From Candidatus Persebacteraceae bacterium Df01 (GTDB lineage Bacteria > Pseudomonadota > Gammaproteobacteria > Tethybacterales > Persebacteraceae): a stretch of DNA of 64,000 nucleotides. The stretch covers positions 199,546 to 263,545 of the forward strand of contig JANQAO010000001.1 in the NCBI GenBank assembly GCA_030386295.1, written 5' to 3'. A program made the position numbers and the translations under genes. Below are positions 44,972 through 51,923 of the stretch, one piece after another (position 1 is the stretch's first letter; every line of letters begins with the position of its first letter). The notes under the pieces were generated by a model, which worked only from the letters and a program-made list of their open reading frames with translations, was not told the origin of the DNA and did not search any database.

Positions 44972-46486
44972 TTGCCAGAGTTTTTGAATTATCTAGGCAA
45001 CGTTTTTGCACCGTTTAACTTTTCAATTTTACTTTTGGGAACCGCTGGTGGGTTGATTTTAGGCGCCTTGCCCGGTCTTAGTCCGACTATGGCGGTAGCA
45101 CTTTTGATACCGTTTACTTTTCATATGGAACCAACCAGCGGGTTAATATTGCTGGGGTCGGTGTACACCGCTACGGTTGCTGGCGGTGCAGTCAGTGCTA
45201 TTTTGCTCAAAATTCCTGGTGCCCCGGCTAACATTGCTACCACGTTAGACGGTCACCAGATGGCACGTCAGGGTCGCGCCGCGCAAGCTTTGCAATTAAG
45301 TTTTTTATCTTCTGGCGTGGGTGGTGTGTTGGGGGTTTTGGTGCTGATTTTTTTTACACCAGTGTTGGCACGGTGGGCGTTAAATTTCGGCCCCTCACAT
45401 TTGTTTTGGCTTGCGGTATTGGGAGTGACTGTTATTGCCTCGCTGGCGACAAATTCTATGATTAAGGGGCTTGCCGCCGGTTGTATCGGTTTGTGGATTT
45501 CCTCAATCGGTTATGACGGGGTGCACGGTGTACACCGGTTTTCTTTTACTTCCCACTTGGACGGTGGCATTCACATCATCGCCGCGTTGGTGGGGCTGTT
45601 TGCCATCCCACAAGTTATTGACATGCTGGTGCGCAGTAGAGGTGGTGGTAGCGGTGAGAATATGAGTAAAACCGTACAACCGCATTCGTTGTTACAAGCC
45701 GTGCGGCAGGTGTTGAGTAAGCCGCGAACATTAACAATTGGCTCTATTGTGGGCATTGTTGTTGGGTTGGTGCCCGGAGCGGGTGGACAAATTGCTGGAC
45801 TGGTGGCTTATGACCAATCGCGCAAATTTAGTAAAACACGGGAGACTTACGGCAAGGGCGAGCCAGAAGGGCTTATCGCTGCGGAAACCGCCAATAATGC
45901 TATGGTTGGACCATCGCTCGTGCCGTTGCTGACGCTGAGTGTTCCCGGCAGCCCCACTGCTGCCGTGCTGTTGGGAGGCTTGCTTATACACGGTATTTTC
46001 CCGGGGCCATCATTGTTCACCGATTATCCAGAGGTGTCTTGGACGTTTATTAATTCCCTGTTGGTTGGACAAGTGTTGATGGTTGTGTTGGGGTTGGCGC
46101 TTGCCCGGTTGGCGGCAAAAGTCATTATGCTGCCCGAACATTACCTAGCTGCCGCAGTGGTAGTGCTGGCGGTGTTTGGCACTTACAGTGTGCAACATTC
46201 ATATTCAGACGTGCTCATTATGGCGACTTTGGGTGGCGGCATGTGGTTTTTTGAAAAATATGGTTTTAGTGCGGCCCCTTTAGTATTAGGCATTGTATTA
46301 GGCCCCATTGCCGAACAAAACTTTGTTTATGGACGCACCATCGCCGAAGCCGGCGATGGTATTTTGCCTTATTTCTTTGGCGGCGGATTAAATATTGCAC
46401 TGGTGACTCTTATCATTTTGTCGGTGCTAGGTAGCGCTGTTTTGGAAATGCGTGCTCGGCGCAAATCATCATTGGTTGTGGCATGA
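44972..46486 (+). CDS. tctA: TTT-family transporter large subunit (TctA)
   Basis: The main membrane subunit of a tripartite tricarboxylate transporter. About 504 residues and ten or more membrane segments, with family blocks GLILGALPGLSPTMAVALLIPFTF and PGAGGQIAGLVAYDQSR. A TTG at 44972 preceded by GAGGAG at 5 bp is the likely start; an in-frame TTG at 44945 has no ribosome site. It opens an operon with tctB, tctC, an aldehyde dehydrogenase and a CoA ligase. Confidence 0.9.
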   Translation: MPEFLNYLGNVFAPFNFSILLLGTAGGLILGALPGLSPTMAVALLIPFTFHMEPTSGLILLGSVYTATVAGGAVSAILLKIPGAPANIATTLDGHQMARQGRAAQALQLSFLSSGVGGVLGVLVLIFFTPVLARWALNFGPSHLFWLAVLGVTVIASLATNSMIKGLAAGCIGLWISSIGYDGVHGVHRFSFTSHLDGGIHIIAALVGLFAIPQVIDMLVRSRGGGSGENMSKTVQPHSLLQAVRQVLSKPRTLTIGSIVGIVVGLVPGAGGQIAGLVAYDQSRKFSKTRETYGKGEPEGLIAAETANNAMVGPSLVPLLTLSVPGSPTAAVLLGGLLIHGIFPGPSLFTDYPEVSWTFINSLLVGQVLMVVLGLALARLAAKVIMLPEHYLAAAVVVLAVFGTYSVQHSYSDVLIMATLGGGMWFFEKYGFSAAPLVLGIVLGPIAEQNFVYGRTIAEAGDGILPYFFGGGLNIALVTLIILSVLGSAVLEMRARRKSSLVVA

Positions 46487-46929
46487 ACTGGCGGCATGGA
46501 TTGGCAGCGGCAAGCGGTGATGTGGCCGCATTGCTGTTTGCGCTGATGGCGGTGTGGGCTTCGTTCACGGCGGACGAGCCTGAAGCTTATGTGTTTCCGC
46601 AGCTTATATCAATATTAATGCTGGTTTTTTGTGGAATTAATTTTGTTCGTCGCGCCGTTACACAATTTGCCGGCAAACCGCCGCTGGATGCAGTATTACT
46701 CAAAAAAATCGCGCCCGGCGCGGCTGTCATCTGTGTGTATATATTAACAGCAGAAACGGTAGGCTTTTATCTGGCGGCGGCGGTGGTGTTTGCGACATTG
46801 TCGTTGCTGTACGGTGCTGCAACGCATCGGAAACAAGTGTTTATTGTTACCGGCGCGGTGGTTGCTGTGCTGTATAGTTTATTTTCGTTGTTATTGCGAG
46901 TACAGGTTCCGCGGGAATTTTTCTTATAA
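46483..46929 (+). CDS. tctB: TTT-family transporter small subunit (TctB)
   Basis: A 148-residue protein with four hydrophobic segments (about residues 12-30, 35-55, 80-100 and 118-138), the TctB topology. Its ATG overlaps the tctA stop by 4 bp. TctB sequences are poorly conserved, so the call depends on size, topology and position. Confidence 0.85.
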   Translation: MNWRHGLAAASGDVAALLFALMAVWASFTADEPEAYVFPQLISILMLVFCGINFVRRAVTQFAGKPPLDAVLLKKIAPGAAVICVYILTAETVGFYLAAAVVFATLSLLYGAATHRKQVFIVTGAVVAVLYSLFSLLLRVQVPREFFL

Positions 46930-46976
46930 TGGAAAAGTTATTAAACTTAAAATCATTCATCAAAGAGGAGAAAAAA

Positions 46977-47957
46977 ATGAAAACGTATTCTTTCAAAAAA
47001 CTGGCTGCCGCAATGGCGGCCGTTATGTTGGCTGTGGCGCCAGCTGCACAGGCGGCTTATCCTGAGCGGCCCATTGGCGTCGTGGTGGCTTATGGTGCTG
47101 GCGGCGCGACAGATTTTCAGGCGCGCATTGTCACTATGATGTCGGCACAGGAAGATTATCTCGGTCAGCCCATTTATATTATTAACAAGCCCGGTGCTGG
47201 CGGTCAAAAAGGTTGGAATGCTTTTGTTAACAAAGCCAAATCCGACGGTTATGAACTGTCCGCTTACAATGTTCCGCATTTTATTGCTCAATCCATCGCT
47301 TTTCCGGGTAAAGTCAAATACAATATTGGCAATCTAGAGCCGATTGGTAACTGGGGTGCCGATCCGGCAGTACTTATCGTACCTAAGGACAGCCCGTTTA
47401 ACAGTGCACAAGAATTAGTTGATTTTGCCAAGAAGAATCCGGGCAAATTGACTGTTAACGGTGCCGGTAAATTTGTTGGGCATCATATCGCTTTTTTACA
47501 GCTGGCGCGAGCGACGGACGCTAAAATGACTTACATTCCCCATCCCAAAGGTGGTGCTGGTGCACTCAAAGATGTAATGGGAGGTCAGGTCAAGGCTGGA
47601 TTTAATAATTTGTCCGATGCTTTTCGCTCCAAAGACAATCTCAAAATTCTTGCGATAGCTGATTTGCAGCGTCACGATTTTTTGCCTGATGTGCCGACAT
47701 TTAAAGAGCAAGGCGTAGATATAGACGACTCCAGTGTGAATTTTCGCGGTATTATGGCGCCCAAGGGAACTCCACCGGAAATCATCGCTTATCTTGCCGA
47801 GCGAGTGCCATTGATGTTTGGTAACAAAAAGCGAGTGGAAAAGAAAATGAAATCCAGTGGATCACCTGTGCGAATTATGAGCCGCGAAGAAGTGCAAGCC
47901 ATGTGGAAAGAACGCCAAGTATATTTAACAGACTTGCTCAAAGACTTAGTACAGTAA
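46977..47957 (+). CDS. tctC: TTT-family periplasmic binding protein (TctC)
   Basis: Extracytoplasmic solute receptor of the transporter, 326 residues. Signal peptide at residues 1-22 (LAAAMAAVMLAVAPAAQA), then YPERPIGVVVAYGAGGATDFQAR, PGAGGQKGW and a C-terminal PTFKEQGVDI, typical of the TctC/Bug family. GAGGAG 6 bp before the ATG at 46977 decides the start. Bug receptors bind small carboxylates; the bound ligand is not readable here. Confidence 0.9.
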   Translation: MKTYSFKKLAAAMAAVMLAVAPAAQAAYPERPIGVVVAYGAGGATDFQARIVTMMSAQEDYLGQPIYIINKPGAGGQKGWNAFVNKAKSDGYELSAYNVPHFIAQSIAFPGKVKYNIGNLEPIGNWGADPAVLIVPKDSPFNSAQELVDFAKKNPGKLTVNGAGKFVGHHIAFLQLARATDAKMTYIPHPKGGAGALKDVMGGQVKAGFNNLSDAFRSKDNLKILAIADLQRHDFLPDVPTFKEQGVDIDDSSVNFRGIMAPKGTPPEIIAYLAERVPLMFGNKKRVEKKMKSSGSPVRIMSREEVQAMWKERQVYLTDLLKDLVQ

Positions 47958-49354
47958 TGGCTGTCGCGCCGGATGGGGCGGTAGATTCAACTATCGCTGA
48001 TATTGTCGCGCGCGCGCGACGCGCGCAAGCCGTATTTGCCACCGGCTCGCAAGCAGATATTGATTTAGCCTGTTTGGCTGCGGCGCGCCCTCTGATGCGT
48101 CCCGAGGATAATCGTCGGTTGTGTGAGATGGCGGTGGAGGAGACTGGAATCGGCAATGCCGCCGACAAAATGCGCAAAAATATGCGCAAGACGTTGGGAT
48201 TGTTGAATGATATTCACGGACAGTCAACAGTCGGAGTAGTGCGTGATGATCCAGCCCAAGGAATTACAGAAATTGCTCGCCCTGTAGGCGTTGTGGCGGC
48301 ACTGACGCCGTCCACTAACCCGGTGGCGACGCCGGTAAATAAAACTGTCAATGCTCTCAAAGGTGGTAATGCTATCGTGTTGGCTCCGCCGCCGGCTGCT
48401 GCTCGTACCGGTGCTGCATTGCTAGAACTTATGCGCATTGAATTGAAGCGCGTTGGCGCGCCGCCGGATGTGGTGCAAATGTTGCTGCCACCATCTAAAG
48501 CGGCGACGGTGGCACTCATGCGTCAAGCTGACTTGGTAGTGGTGACCGGTTCTCAGCGTAATGTGCGTGGCGCTTATGCTAGTGGCACGCCGGCAATTGG
48601 CGTAGGTGCCGGTAATGTGGCGGTAATCGTTGACGAAACTGCTGATGTTGGGCAAGCTTCCGCTCGTATCCGTACTTCTAAAATTTTTGATAATTCTACT
48701 TCCTGTTCATCGGAAAATCATTTGATAATTGTTGCCAGTGTGTACGACGCTATGATGGAAGCGTTGCGCCGTGAAGGCGGAGTATTATTGGATGACTCTG
48801 ACAAGCGTCAATTGCAGTCGCAATTGTGGGTGAACGGCGCACTTAACCGTGATCTCATCGCCCGTGACATGGCGGTATTTGCCGATCGCGCCGGACTGGG
48901 AGCTACTGCCGAGCAAGCGGCATTTTTGATGGTGGAAGAAAATGGCGTGGGTGATGCTTATCCGTTTTCCGGTGAAAAATTGTCGCTGGTGCTGACTTTG
49001 TATAAAGCCGCTGACTTTTCAGCTGCCAAGGTGCAGGCGGCGGCGTTGCTGGCGTACCAAGGTGCCGGACATTCGTTGGGTATTCACACACAGACCGAGG
49101 CTCGACCACTAGAATTGGGATTAGAATTGCCGGCGTGTCGCATAATTGTTAATCAGGCACACTGTTTTGCTAATGGAGGTAATTTTGACAATGGAATGCC
49201 GTTTTCATTATCTATGGGTTGCGGCACTTGGGGAGGAAATTCTATTAGTGACAATCTTAATTTTCGCCACTTCATCAACACAGTGAGAGTGGTTCGCGCT
49301 ATCCCTGCACAAGAGCCGACGATAGAAGATATTTATTCTGATTATCCAGATTAA
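47957..49354 (+). CDS. CoA-acylating aldehyde dehydrogenase, SauS-like
   Basis: A 465-residue dehydrogenase of the acylating (PduP/SucD/SauS) branch: TPSTNPVATPVNKT, the catalytic Cys in DNSTSCSSENHL (about residue 250), and a Gly-rich C-terminus with SMGCGTWGGNS. These enzymes interconvert acyl-CoA and aldehyde with NAD(P)H. The sequence pattern and the CoA ligase next door fit sulfoacetaldehyde dehydrogenase SauS; succinate-semialdehyde or other acylating dehydrogenases remain possible. It starts in a TAATG overlap with tctC. Confidence 0.8.
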   Translation: MAVAPDGAVDSTIADIVARARRAQAVFATGSQADIDLACLAAARPLMRPEDNRRLCEMAVEETGIGNAADKMRKNMRKTLGLLNDIHGQSTVGVVRDDPAQGITEIARPVGVVAALTPSTNPVATPVNKTVNALKGGNAIVLAPPPAAARTGAALLELMRIELKRVGAPPDVVQMLLPPSKAATVALMRQADLVVVTGSQRNVRGAYASGTPAIGVGAGNVAVIVDETADVGQASARIRTSKIFDNSTSCSSENHLIIVASVYDAMMEALRREGGVLLDDSDKRQLQSQLWVNGALNRDLIARDMAVFADRAGLGATAEQAAFLMVEENGVGDAYPFSGEKLSLVLTLYKAADFSAAKVQAAALLAYQGAGHSLGIHTQTEARPLELGLELPACRIIVNQAHCFANGGNFDNGMPFSLSMGCGTWGGNSISDNLNFRHFINTVRVVRAIPAQEPTIEDIYSDYPD

Positions 49355-49359
49355 TTATT

Positions 49360-50898
49360 ATGAGTGACGAAATGTCAGCATTAATGACGGCTCAGCAGCA
49401 CACGTTACAAAGCCTTATTGATATGCGTGCCGAGGAGACGCCAGCGCAACCATTTTTTTTGTCGTTGGAGAGCGGGCTTTGTATAACCTATGCTCAGTTG
49501 CGAGAGTCATTGTGCGGCTGTGGCGAGGCATTAGCAACTGTACCGCGGGGAGAGACGGTAGGAATCCTCGCCGGTAACGGTTGGGCGGTAGCGCAATTTT
49601 TATTAGCGGCACCGTATCACGGTCGGCGGGCGATGTTGATTAATTTGGCTGCTGGTAGAAACAATATTATTTACACGTTGACTCACAGTGGGTGCAAATT
49701 GATTTTTGCCGACGCCGACAATATTGACGCACTGTGCGATATGGTTGTTGCTGCTGGTGTGGAAATAATGATTGTGCCAGTGGATCGTGACCGAGGAATT
49801 GAAAATAATCAGCCCGCCACATTGCCACCACTAGTGTCGCGCGAGGATGATGCGCTGCTAATATACACCAGCGGCACCACTGGCAAGCCCAAAGGCGTAT
49901 TGCACACGCACGGCAGTTTGCTTGCTGGTGGTGCCAACACCGCACTGGCGCATCGGCTTACCGCTGCTGACCGAGCATTGTGTGTGCTGCCGTTGTGCCA
50001 TATTAATGCCCAGTGTGTGACTGTCATGGCACCGCTGGTTAGCGGTGGCAGCGTGGTGGTGCCACATCGGTTTAGTGTGAGTCGTTTTTGGCAGTGGTTG
50101 GAAAAAATGGAATGCACTTGGTTTAGTGTGGTGCCAACGATTGTGTCGCATTTGTTGCACAATGTCGCTCCGGCAATATCCTTACCCAAATTACGCTTTG
50201 GGCGTTCGGCGTCATCGGCGTTGGCACCAGAAACACACCGCCAATTTGAAAAGCGCTTTGGTGTTAACCTTTATGAAACAATGGGACTTAGCGAAACGGC
50301 AGCACAAATTTTATCTAATCCGATGCCACCACAGCAGATTAAATACGGATCGCCGGGAATTGCTTTTGGCAACGAAGTGACGGTTTTGGATGCTAAGGGG
50401 CAGGAGACACCGCGCAATGCGGAAGGCGAAATAGCCGTTCGTGGCGACAACGTGATGCGCGGCTACCTCAACGCGCCAGCAGATACAGCTGCCGCATTTA
50501 CCGCTGATGGTTGGTTTTGTACCGGCGATTTAGGACGCATGGATGAGGATGGTTTTGTATTTATTACTGGTCGGCGTAAAGAGTTAATTATTAAAGGTGG
50601 TGAAAATATTGCTCCGCGCGAGATAGATGATGCGTTGTATCAGTCTGCCGGCGTGGTGGAGGCAGCAGCGTTTGGCTGTGCTTGTAAGGTGTACGGCCAG
50701 CGGGTGGAAGCCGCTGTAGTTTTGTCATCGCCGCAAATCCATAGCGAACAAGAACTTATTGATTCGTGTGTCCACCAAGTGGGTGCGTTTAAGGCACCGG
50801 AGCGGGTGCATTTTATGGAATCGTTGCCCAAGGGGCCGTCGGGTAAGGTGCAACGATTAAGATTGGTGGATATAATTGAAGAACAGTTGAAAAAATAA
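49360..50898 (+). CDS. AMP-forming acyl-CoA ligase, SauT-like
   Basis: A 512-residue ANL-family ligase with P-loop YTSGTTGKPKGVLHTHGS (about residues 168-185), YETMGLSETAAQ, the hinge GRRKELIIKGGENIAPREID and C-terminal LPKGPSGKVQR with the catalytic Lys. It would join a small carboxylate to CoA. It follows the SauS-like gene by 5 bp, matching the sauS-sauT order of sulfoacetate users. Other carboxylates are not excluded. Confidence 0.82.
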   Translation: MSDEMSALMTAQQHTLQSLIDMRAEETPAQPFFLSLESGLCITYAQLRESLCGCGEALATVPRGETVGILAGNGWAVAQFLLAAPYHGRRAMLINLAAGRNNIIYTLTHSGCKLIFADADNIDALCDMVVAAGVEIMIVPVDRDRGIENNQPATLPPLVSREDDALLIYTSGTTGKPKGVLHTHGSLLAGGANTALAHRLTAADRALCVLPLCHINAQCVTVMAPLVSGGSVVVPHRFSVSRFWQWLEKMECTWFSVVPTIVSHLLHNVAPAISLPKLRFGRSASSALAPETHRQFEKRFGVNLYETMGLSETAAQILSNPMPPQQIKYGSPGIAFGNEVTVLDAKGQETPRNAEGEIAVRGDNVMRGYLNAPADTAAAFTADGWFCTGDLGRMDEDGFVFITGRRKELIIKGGENIAPREIDDALYQSAGVVEAAAFGCACKVYGQRVEAAVVLSSPQIHSEQELIDSCVHQVGAFKAPERVHFMESLPKGPSGKVQRLRLVDIIEEQLKK

Positions 50899-51005: not shown

Positions 51006-51923
51006 ATGAATTCATCCATTAGCGCCAGAATGAACAGTCGTGTATGGGCAATGCTCATCACGTTGTCTGTTCTTTGGGGCGGTTCATTTTTCTTTATTGG
51101 CATTGCGGTGTCAGGGTTGCCGCCGTTGACAATTGCTGCTTTGCGAGTTTCGCTGGCTGCCATCACACTTTGGATTGTTGCATTCGCTATGGGCTTACGT
51201 CTGCCGAGCTCAATGCGCACGTGGTGGGCATTTATTGTTATGGGGCTTTTAAATAATGCTATCCCTTTTTCGCTGATTATCTGGGGGCAGATGTACATTG
51301 CTTCAGGGCTTGCTTCTATTTTGAACGCTACAACGCCGTTGTTTACTGTTGTTGTTGCTGGCATTTTGCTTGCTGATGAGCGACTATCGGCAAAAAAAAT
51401 AGCAGGTGTGATTATTGGTTTTGTCGGTGTGGTGGTGATGTTAGATGTGGCGACGCTAATAGAGGGAACGAACGATAATGTCATCGCCCAGTTAGCCATA
51501 CTTGTTGCGGCACTTTCTTATGCTTTTGCTGGCGTATACGGACGTCGGTTCAAAACGATGGGAATTAATCCCATCATTATTGCATCGGGACAAGTGACAG
51601 GAAGCTCACTGATATTAATTCCGTTGGCATTGCTTATTGAGCGTCCTCTTGCCGGAATTATGCCGGATATGGCGGTGTGTGGTGCCATTGTGGGGCTTGC
51701 CGTGATGTCAACCGCATTGGCATACATGTTATATTTTCGCATTCTGGCATCGGCAGGGGCGACAAATTTGTCGTTGACGACGTTTTTAGTTCCAGTGTCG
51801 GCGATTTTTCTCGGTTCAGTGTTTTTAGAAGAAAGACTGGAATTGATTCATTTTATAGGTTTGTTTGGTATTGGCGTTGGATTGTCGTTAATTGATGGGC
51901 GACTGTGGCAAAAGCGCACATGA
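51006..51923 (+). CDS. EamA/DMT-family transporter
   Basis: A 305-residue protein with ten predicted membrane helices in two repeats, each of EamA type (LWGGSFFFIGIAVSGLPPLTIAALR; then ALSYAFAGVYGRRFK and LVPVSAIFLGSVFLEE). Drug/metabolite transporters usually export small molecules. It is 107 bp after the CoA ligase on the same strand; whether it belongs to that operon is uncertain. No clear Shine-Dalgarno. Confidence 0.85.
   Translation: MNSSISARMNSRVWAMLITLSVLWGGSFFFIGIAVSGLPPLTIAALRVSLAAITLWIVAFAMGLRLPSSMRTWWAFIVMGLLNNAIPFSLIIWGQMYIASGLASILNATTPLFTVVVAGILLADERLSAKKIAGVIIGFVGVVVMLDVATLIEGTNDNVIAQLAILVAALSYAFAGVYGRRFKTMGINPIIIASGQVTGSSLILIPLALLIERPLAGIMPDMAVCGAIVGLAVMSTALAYMLYFRILASAGATNLSLTTFLVPVSAIFLGSVFLEERLELIHFIGLFGIGVGLSLIDGRLWQKRT

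Follow-up and report, generated by a model that had tools for sequence, protein, structure and literature searches.

What is the substrate of a transporter of the tripartite tricarboxylate (TTT) family whose genes are joined to those of a CoA-acylating dehydrogenase and an AMP-forming CoA ligase? Such a gene set was identified within the 64,000-nt stretch of the Candidatus Persebacteraceae bacterium Df01 genome analyzed here (the window). An earlier reading, made from the sequence only, had tentatively proposed sulfoacetate, an acid that contains sulfur and occurs both in the sea and in animals, with another small carboxylate, reduced to its aldehyde, as the main alternative. This proposal, left open at the time, is now strongly supported by the profile score and phylogeny of the dehydrogenase, the presence of xsc, pta and soe genes in the genome and the composition of homologous gene clusters in related bacteria. 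We consider it highly probable (approximately 0.88) that the operon serves to take up sulfoacetate and to initiate its degradation.

Genetic organization of the operon

Five ORFs, all of which were confirmed, are located on the + strand of the window (positions 44972–50898) in the order tctA-tctB-tctC-sauS-sauT, with the gaps of −4, 47, −1 and 5 bp given in the sequence-only reading. The Pfam matches of all five encoded proteins exceed the curated cut-offs. The first gene, tctA (44972–46486), has a TTG start codon, with the sequence GAGGAG approximately 6 bp upstream, and encodes the large membrane subunit of a SauXYZ-like TTT (TctA, 448.9 bits). It overlaps by 4 bp with tctB (46483–46929), encoding the small membrane subunit (TctB, 47.2 bits). 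The third gene, tctC (46977–47957; a longer in-frame ORF would start at position 46929), encodes a predicted periplasmic receptor for the substrate (TctC, 117 bits), the N terminus of which resembles a signal peptide; it completes the set of three TTT subunits, encoded together. The product of sauS (47957–49354; Aldedh, 83 bits) is a putative CoA-acylating sulfoacetaldehyde dehydrogenase, i.e. a sulfoacetyl-CoA reductase in the direction of breakdown. Starting 5 bp after sauS, sauT (49360–50898) encodes a candidate AMP-forming sulfoacetate-CoA ligase (AMP-binding, 228.7 bits; AMP-binding_C, 50.9 bits). The identical gene order was found in nine further gammaproteobacterial genomes (one cluster, L071, is cut by the end of its contig, and TctA and TctB could not be told apart as separate ORFs in L041, L072 and L076), so the arrangement is not due to chance.

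The operon is preceded by a divergent leuA gene and followed by a gene encoding an EamA permease (51006–51923; same strand, 107 bp away) and a convergent acetylornithine deacetylase gene, none of which is pathway-specific. The EamA permease was considered as a possible component of the pathway and rejected, since no homologous gene was found beside the sau clusters of the relatives examined; the EamA gene adjoining sauS in one other genome (G217) is not closely related to it. Neither a major-facilitator sauU gene nor a sauR regulator, as present in sauRSTU loci of the Cupriavidus necator type, was found among the genes flanking the operon. Promoter-like sites were no more frequent than in shuffled sequences, and an Rfam search of the window identified a single tRNA only.

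Relationships of the enzymes and the receptor

SauS matched the NCBIfam SauS equivalog NF047625 with 684.5 bits (cut-off 600; profile positions 3–458 of 464). Its scores against other models were lower by nearly twofold or more: 361 bits for AdhE, 325 bits for acetylating acetaldehyde dehydrogenase and 193 bits for the ethanolamine/propanediol-type model PRK15398. In a maximum-likelihood tree, 13 SauS-type proteins formed one group (support 86/90), from which SucD and a below-threshold homologue were split off by a 100/98 branch, and AdhE and acetaldehyde dehydrogenase by another 100/98 branch. Clustering with succinate or propanediol-type dehydrogenases, which the sequence-only reading had named as evidence against its own proposal, was thus not seen for SauS, judging from the model scores and the tree. 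The closest sequence of solved structure is that of a CoA-acylating succinate-semialdehyde dehydrogenase (~36% identity). The expected catalytic cysteine is present in SauS (Cys250) and, by homology, would provide the catalytic thiol. A dehydrogenase that does group with SucD was observed in another genome (G258; L075, 8696–10063), beside an acyl-CoA dehydrogenase-like gene; its matched stretch contains one in-frame TAG.

The family assignment of SauT is based on its Pfam domains; NCBIfam has no SauT equivalog. In each of the nine relatives that have the TTT layout, as well as in G267 and in a contig of SAR324, sauT comes directly after sauS. The nearest solved relatives of SauT are oxalate-CoA ligases; oxalate, too, is a C2 acid that carries two negative groups, and this kinship is compatible with sulfoacetate as the putative substrate.

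TctC of the operon is the sole protein of this family in the genome. It is 60–67% identical to the TctC proteins of other sau clusters (55–76% in the case of TctA). Ten sau-linked TctCs were compared with 14 others, 13 of which came from the same genome set. The sau-linked proteins formed a single clade (support 96/97), with at least 53% identity among themselves and at most 30% to the 14 others, a pattern that fits a dedicated receptor, as judged from sequence comparison. Residues such as His117, Asn226, Asn227 and Arg233 are shared by the sau-linked TctCs and seldom or never occur in the other TctCs; a role of these residues in ligand binding is conjectural. The conservation of this clade makes the ligand directly testable. 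It appears somewhat more probable than the opposite that the sau-linked TctCs are a distinct, dedicated sulfonate-binding branch of the TTT receptors, so that TTT-sauST rather than SauU-sauST would be the usual layout for sulfoacetate uptake in gammaproteobacteria, lineages with reduced genomes and a probable association with animals among them.

Gene linkage in related genomes and the remaining pathway genes

The distribution of SauS was examined in a sample of 274 genomes of the class. Among these, 11 encode a protein scoring over the cut-off; a further one (G001), belonging to the same family as the genome analyzed here, was identified by a search of relatives. All three sampled members of this family, which has few sampled members and small genomes, have SauS. 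TTT genes are located directly beside sauS-sauT in 10 of the 12 gammaproteobacterial genomes with SauS over the cut-off (the cluster of G186 is cut off, and TctB could not be told apart as a separate ORF in G001, G055 and G193); they are not found there in G217 or in G267, which has no TctC anywhere in the genome. A SauS search of named genomes revealed only one relative, the SAR324 contig, carrying a TauE-type gene, sauS and sauT. The TctC encoded on the opposite strand of this contig falls outside the sau-linked clade.

The strongest evidence that the aldehyde produced by SauS is sulfoacetaldehyde comes from clusters in other families that contain downstream pathway genes: (i) tctABC-sauST-xsc-pta (G046), (ii) tctABC-sauST with an IclR regulator and divergent xsc-soeA-soeB-soeC (G051), (iii) tctABC-sauST-xsc-usp-ackA-tauE (G059; usp, universal stress gene) and (iv) tct-sauST-pta (G055). 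Clusters of relatives in which these five genes are accompanied by xsc, pta, ackA, soeABC or tauE fix the predicted pathway as C2-sulfonate breakdown. Moreover, each of the 11 other SauS-positive genomes encodes an Xsc over the cut-off, whereas none of the 33 genomes used for comparison does, three of which have below-threshold SauS homologues. The probability of such a perfect split is 1.3e-10 if the genomes are treated as independent, a value that overstates the significance because several of them are related.

The genome under study (1.53 Mb, five contigs, 98% complete) was screened for the corresponding genes, which lie far from the operon. The sequence-only reading had noted that xsc, a sulfite oxidase and a SauR-type regulator are not in the window, which nothing in our results contradicts, and had regarded absence of xsc from the whole genome as an argument against sulfoacetate. 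The gene was found outside the window on contig C3 (253675–255417), its product scoring 914.2 bits against TIGR03457 (cut-off 676.4). A second xsc-like match was rejected as acetolactate synthase; it adjoins ilvN. Phosphate acetyltransferase (Pta) is encoded on contig C1 (426724–427665; PTA_PTB, 326.5 bits; TIGR00651, 307.1 bits, slightly below the cut-off of 311.2). Candidate sulfite-disposal genes were detected as well: a molybdopterin protein homologous to SoeA, 52% identical over 927 aa to SoeA of the G051 xsc-soeA-soeB-soeC operon, and an adjacent soeB-soeC pair on a different contig, with SoeC only 35% identical to its G051 counterpart. In contrast to the single soeABC operon of G051, these genes are split, soeA (L014, 6347–9214; C3) being located alone between tsaD and ftsH, and soeB-soeC at L058, 6129–7787 (C1). 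Two other molybdoenzymes of the genome were dismissed as formate-dehydrogenase-like. Two TauE-family proteins are also encoded.

Since Xsc also takes part in taurine breakdown, the presence of xsc alone does not show sulfoacetate use, and the argument for sulfoacetate is carried by the gene clusters and by the score of SauS. Xsc probably serves taurine also. In a member of the same family (G002; L108), xsc adjoins a tauABC-type ABC transporter, and the genome analyzed here has genes for a similar transporter, with a TauA-like protein scoring 178 bits, below its cut-off. The TauABC-type genes (L059, 4606–8846; C3) have an FAD-dependent amino-acid-oxidase-like gene upstream, with which they may form a taurine uptake and deamination unit.

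Several further observations were made in this genome. On contig C3 (~249.9–255.4 kb; L004, 5388–10924), phaC and the genes of a thiolase (phaA) and a reductase (phaB) come after xsc in the same orientation, which suggests that acetyl units from sulfonates may go into polyhydroxybutyrate storage; no pha genes were found beside xsc in the two family members examined (L108 and L109). Approximately 4 kb from xsc, phnX encodes a phosphonoacetaldehyde hydrolase (L004, 14638–15489; C3; TIGR01422, 270 bits), and an ORF that is phnX-like, judged by the start of its sequence only, was seen in the vicinity of the G059 sau cluster (L069, 14632–15504). Two ORFs at the end of contig C2 (L005, 15239–16501 and 17204–18322), porin-like by eye, have the stretch AQDTSGMQYTSASEGFWASLRV in common and are possibly recombining copies.

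Proposed function, alternatives and known systems

From the genes observed, the families to which they belong and their linkage and co-occurrence we infer the substrate, the direction, transport and regulation. TctC would bind the sulfoacetate anion in the periplasm, and TctAB would carry it across the membrane. SauT would then convert sulfoacetate, ATP and CoA to sulfoacetyl-CoA in an AMP-forming reaction, and SauS would reduce this thioester with NAD(P)H to sulfoacetaldehyde. Xsc is predicted to cleave the aldehyde with phosphate to sulfite and acetyl phosphate, from which Pta would form acetyl-CoA, while the toxic sulfite would be oxidized by SoeA with SoeBC. AMP-forming ligases are normally irreversible towards the thioester, and transporters of the TTT type that have a periplasmic receptor work in the import direction.

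Alternatively, the substrate might be a different small carboxylate (oxalate, giving glyoxylate; malonate; succinate; or 3-sulfopropionate), which the operon would reduce to the aldehyde via a CoA thioester. The kinship of the ligase to solved oxalate-CoA ligases, and of the dehydrogenase to a solved acetylating succinate-semialdehyde dehydrogenase, speaks for this, but the score of SauS is nearly twice as high for the SauS equivalog as for any other model, and a branch supported at 100/98 separates SucD from the SauS-type group. A sulfoacetaldehyde route also fits the strict co-occurrence with xsc and the xsc, pta, ackA, soe and tauE genes that adjoin the clusters of relatives. A CoA-acylating 3-sulfopropionaldehyde dehydrogenase, HpfX, does exist, but it is described with ADP-forming HpfYZ and with HpfD (PMC11489063), whereas the ligase encoded here is of the AMP-forming type. 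Another carboxylate is thus an improbable substrate. Even less probable, to a degree that we regard as very slight, is that the enzymes run in reverse and make sulfoacetate for export from taurine-derived sulfoacetaldehyde. The taurine-type ABC transporter encoded in this genome could supply such a route; however, Xsc already consumes sulfoacetaldehyde, and a TTT with a periplasmic receptor imports its substrate. In a sulfo-TK variant, a CoA-acylating sulfoacetaldehyde dehydrogenase is used in this direction (SqwD with SqwKL, PMC12890257), but the SqwKL partner is ADP-forming, unlike the AMP-type ligase encoded here.

The proposed breakdown of imported sulfoacetate can be compared with known systems. 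As far as the description of the C. necator H16 sauRSTU locus goes, the two have in common sauS and sauT side by side and the route from sulfoacetyl-CoA through sulfoacetaldehyde to Xsc; they differ in that a TTT is present here in place of the major-facilitator protein SauU and that there is no adjacent regulator. For Bilophila, SauXYZ has been put forward as a sulfoacetate transporter of the TTT type, according to the accounts in PMC12625764 and PMC12890257. The B. wadsworthia sauXYZ-SauSCD system, again compared by description, shares the joining of a TTT to SauS; it is described with the ADP-forming SauCD and a route through isethionate and a glycyl-radical lyase, whereas an AMP-forming SauT and Xsc are predicted here.

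The idea that uptake proceeds by a TTT instead of SauU is upheld by the present analysis and is not without precedent. A study of 2025 (PMC12625764) reported sauST clusters joined to a TTT in OTU1 (Ca. Eurynomebacter; Tethybacterales/Persebacteraceae) and OTU4 (Ca. Halichondribacter), both of them dominant symbionts of Arctic sponges, and termed these clusters a hybrid of Cupriavidus enzymes and the Bilophila SauXYZ transporter. The TTT-sauST layout being already published, the operon is a well-supported further example and not a new type of system. With it, a likely substrate can be named for one transporter of the TTT family, whose substrates mostly lack assignment, and its relatives show that the use of sulfoacetate via a TTT importer extends to several families of gammaproteobacteria, beyond the published sponge symbionts. 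The genome analyzed here could itself be a member of the published symbiont group. Its operon and the symbiont clusters have the same gene content (TTT, sauS and sauT) and the same proposed function, and no difference in content was found between them.
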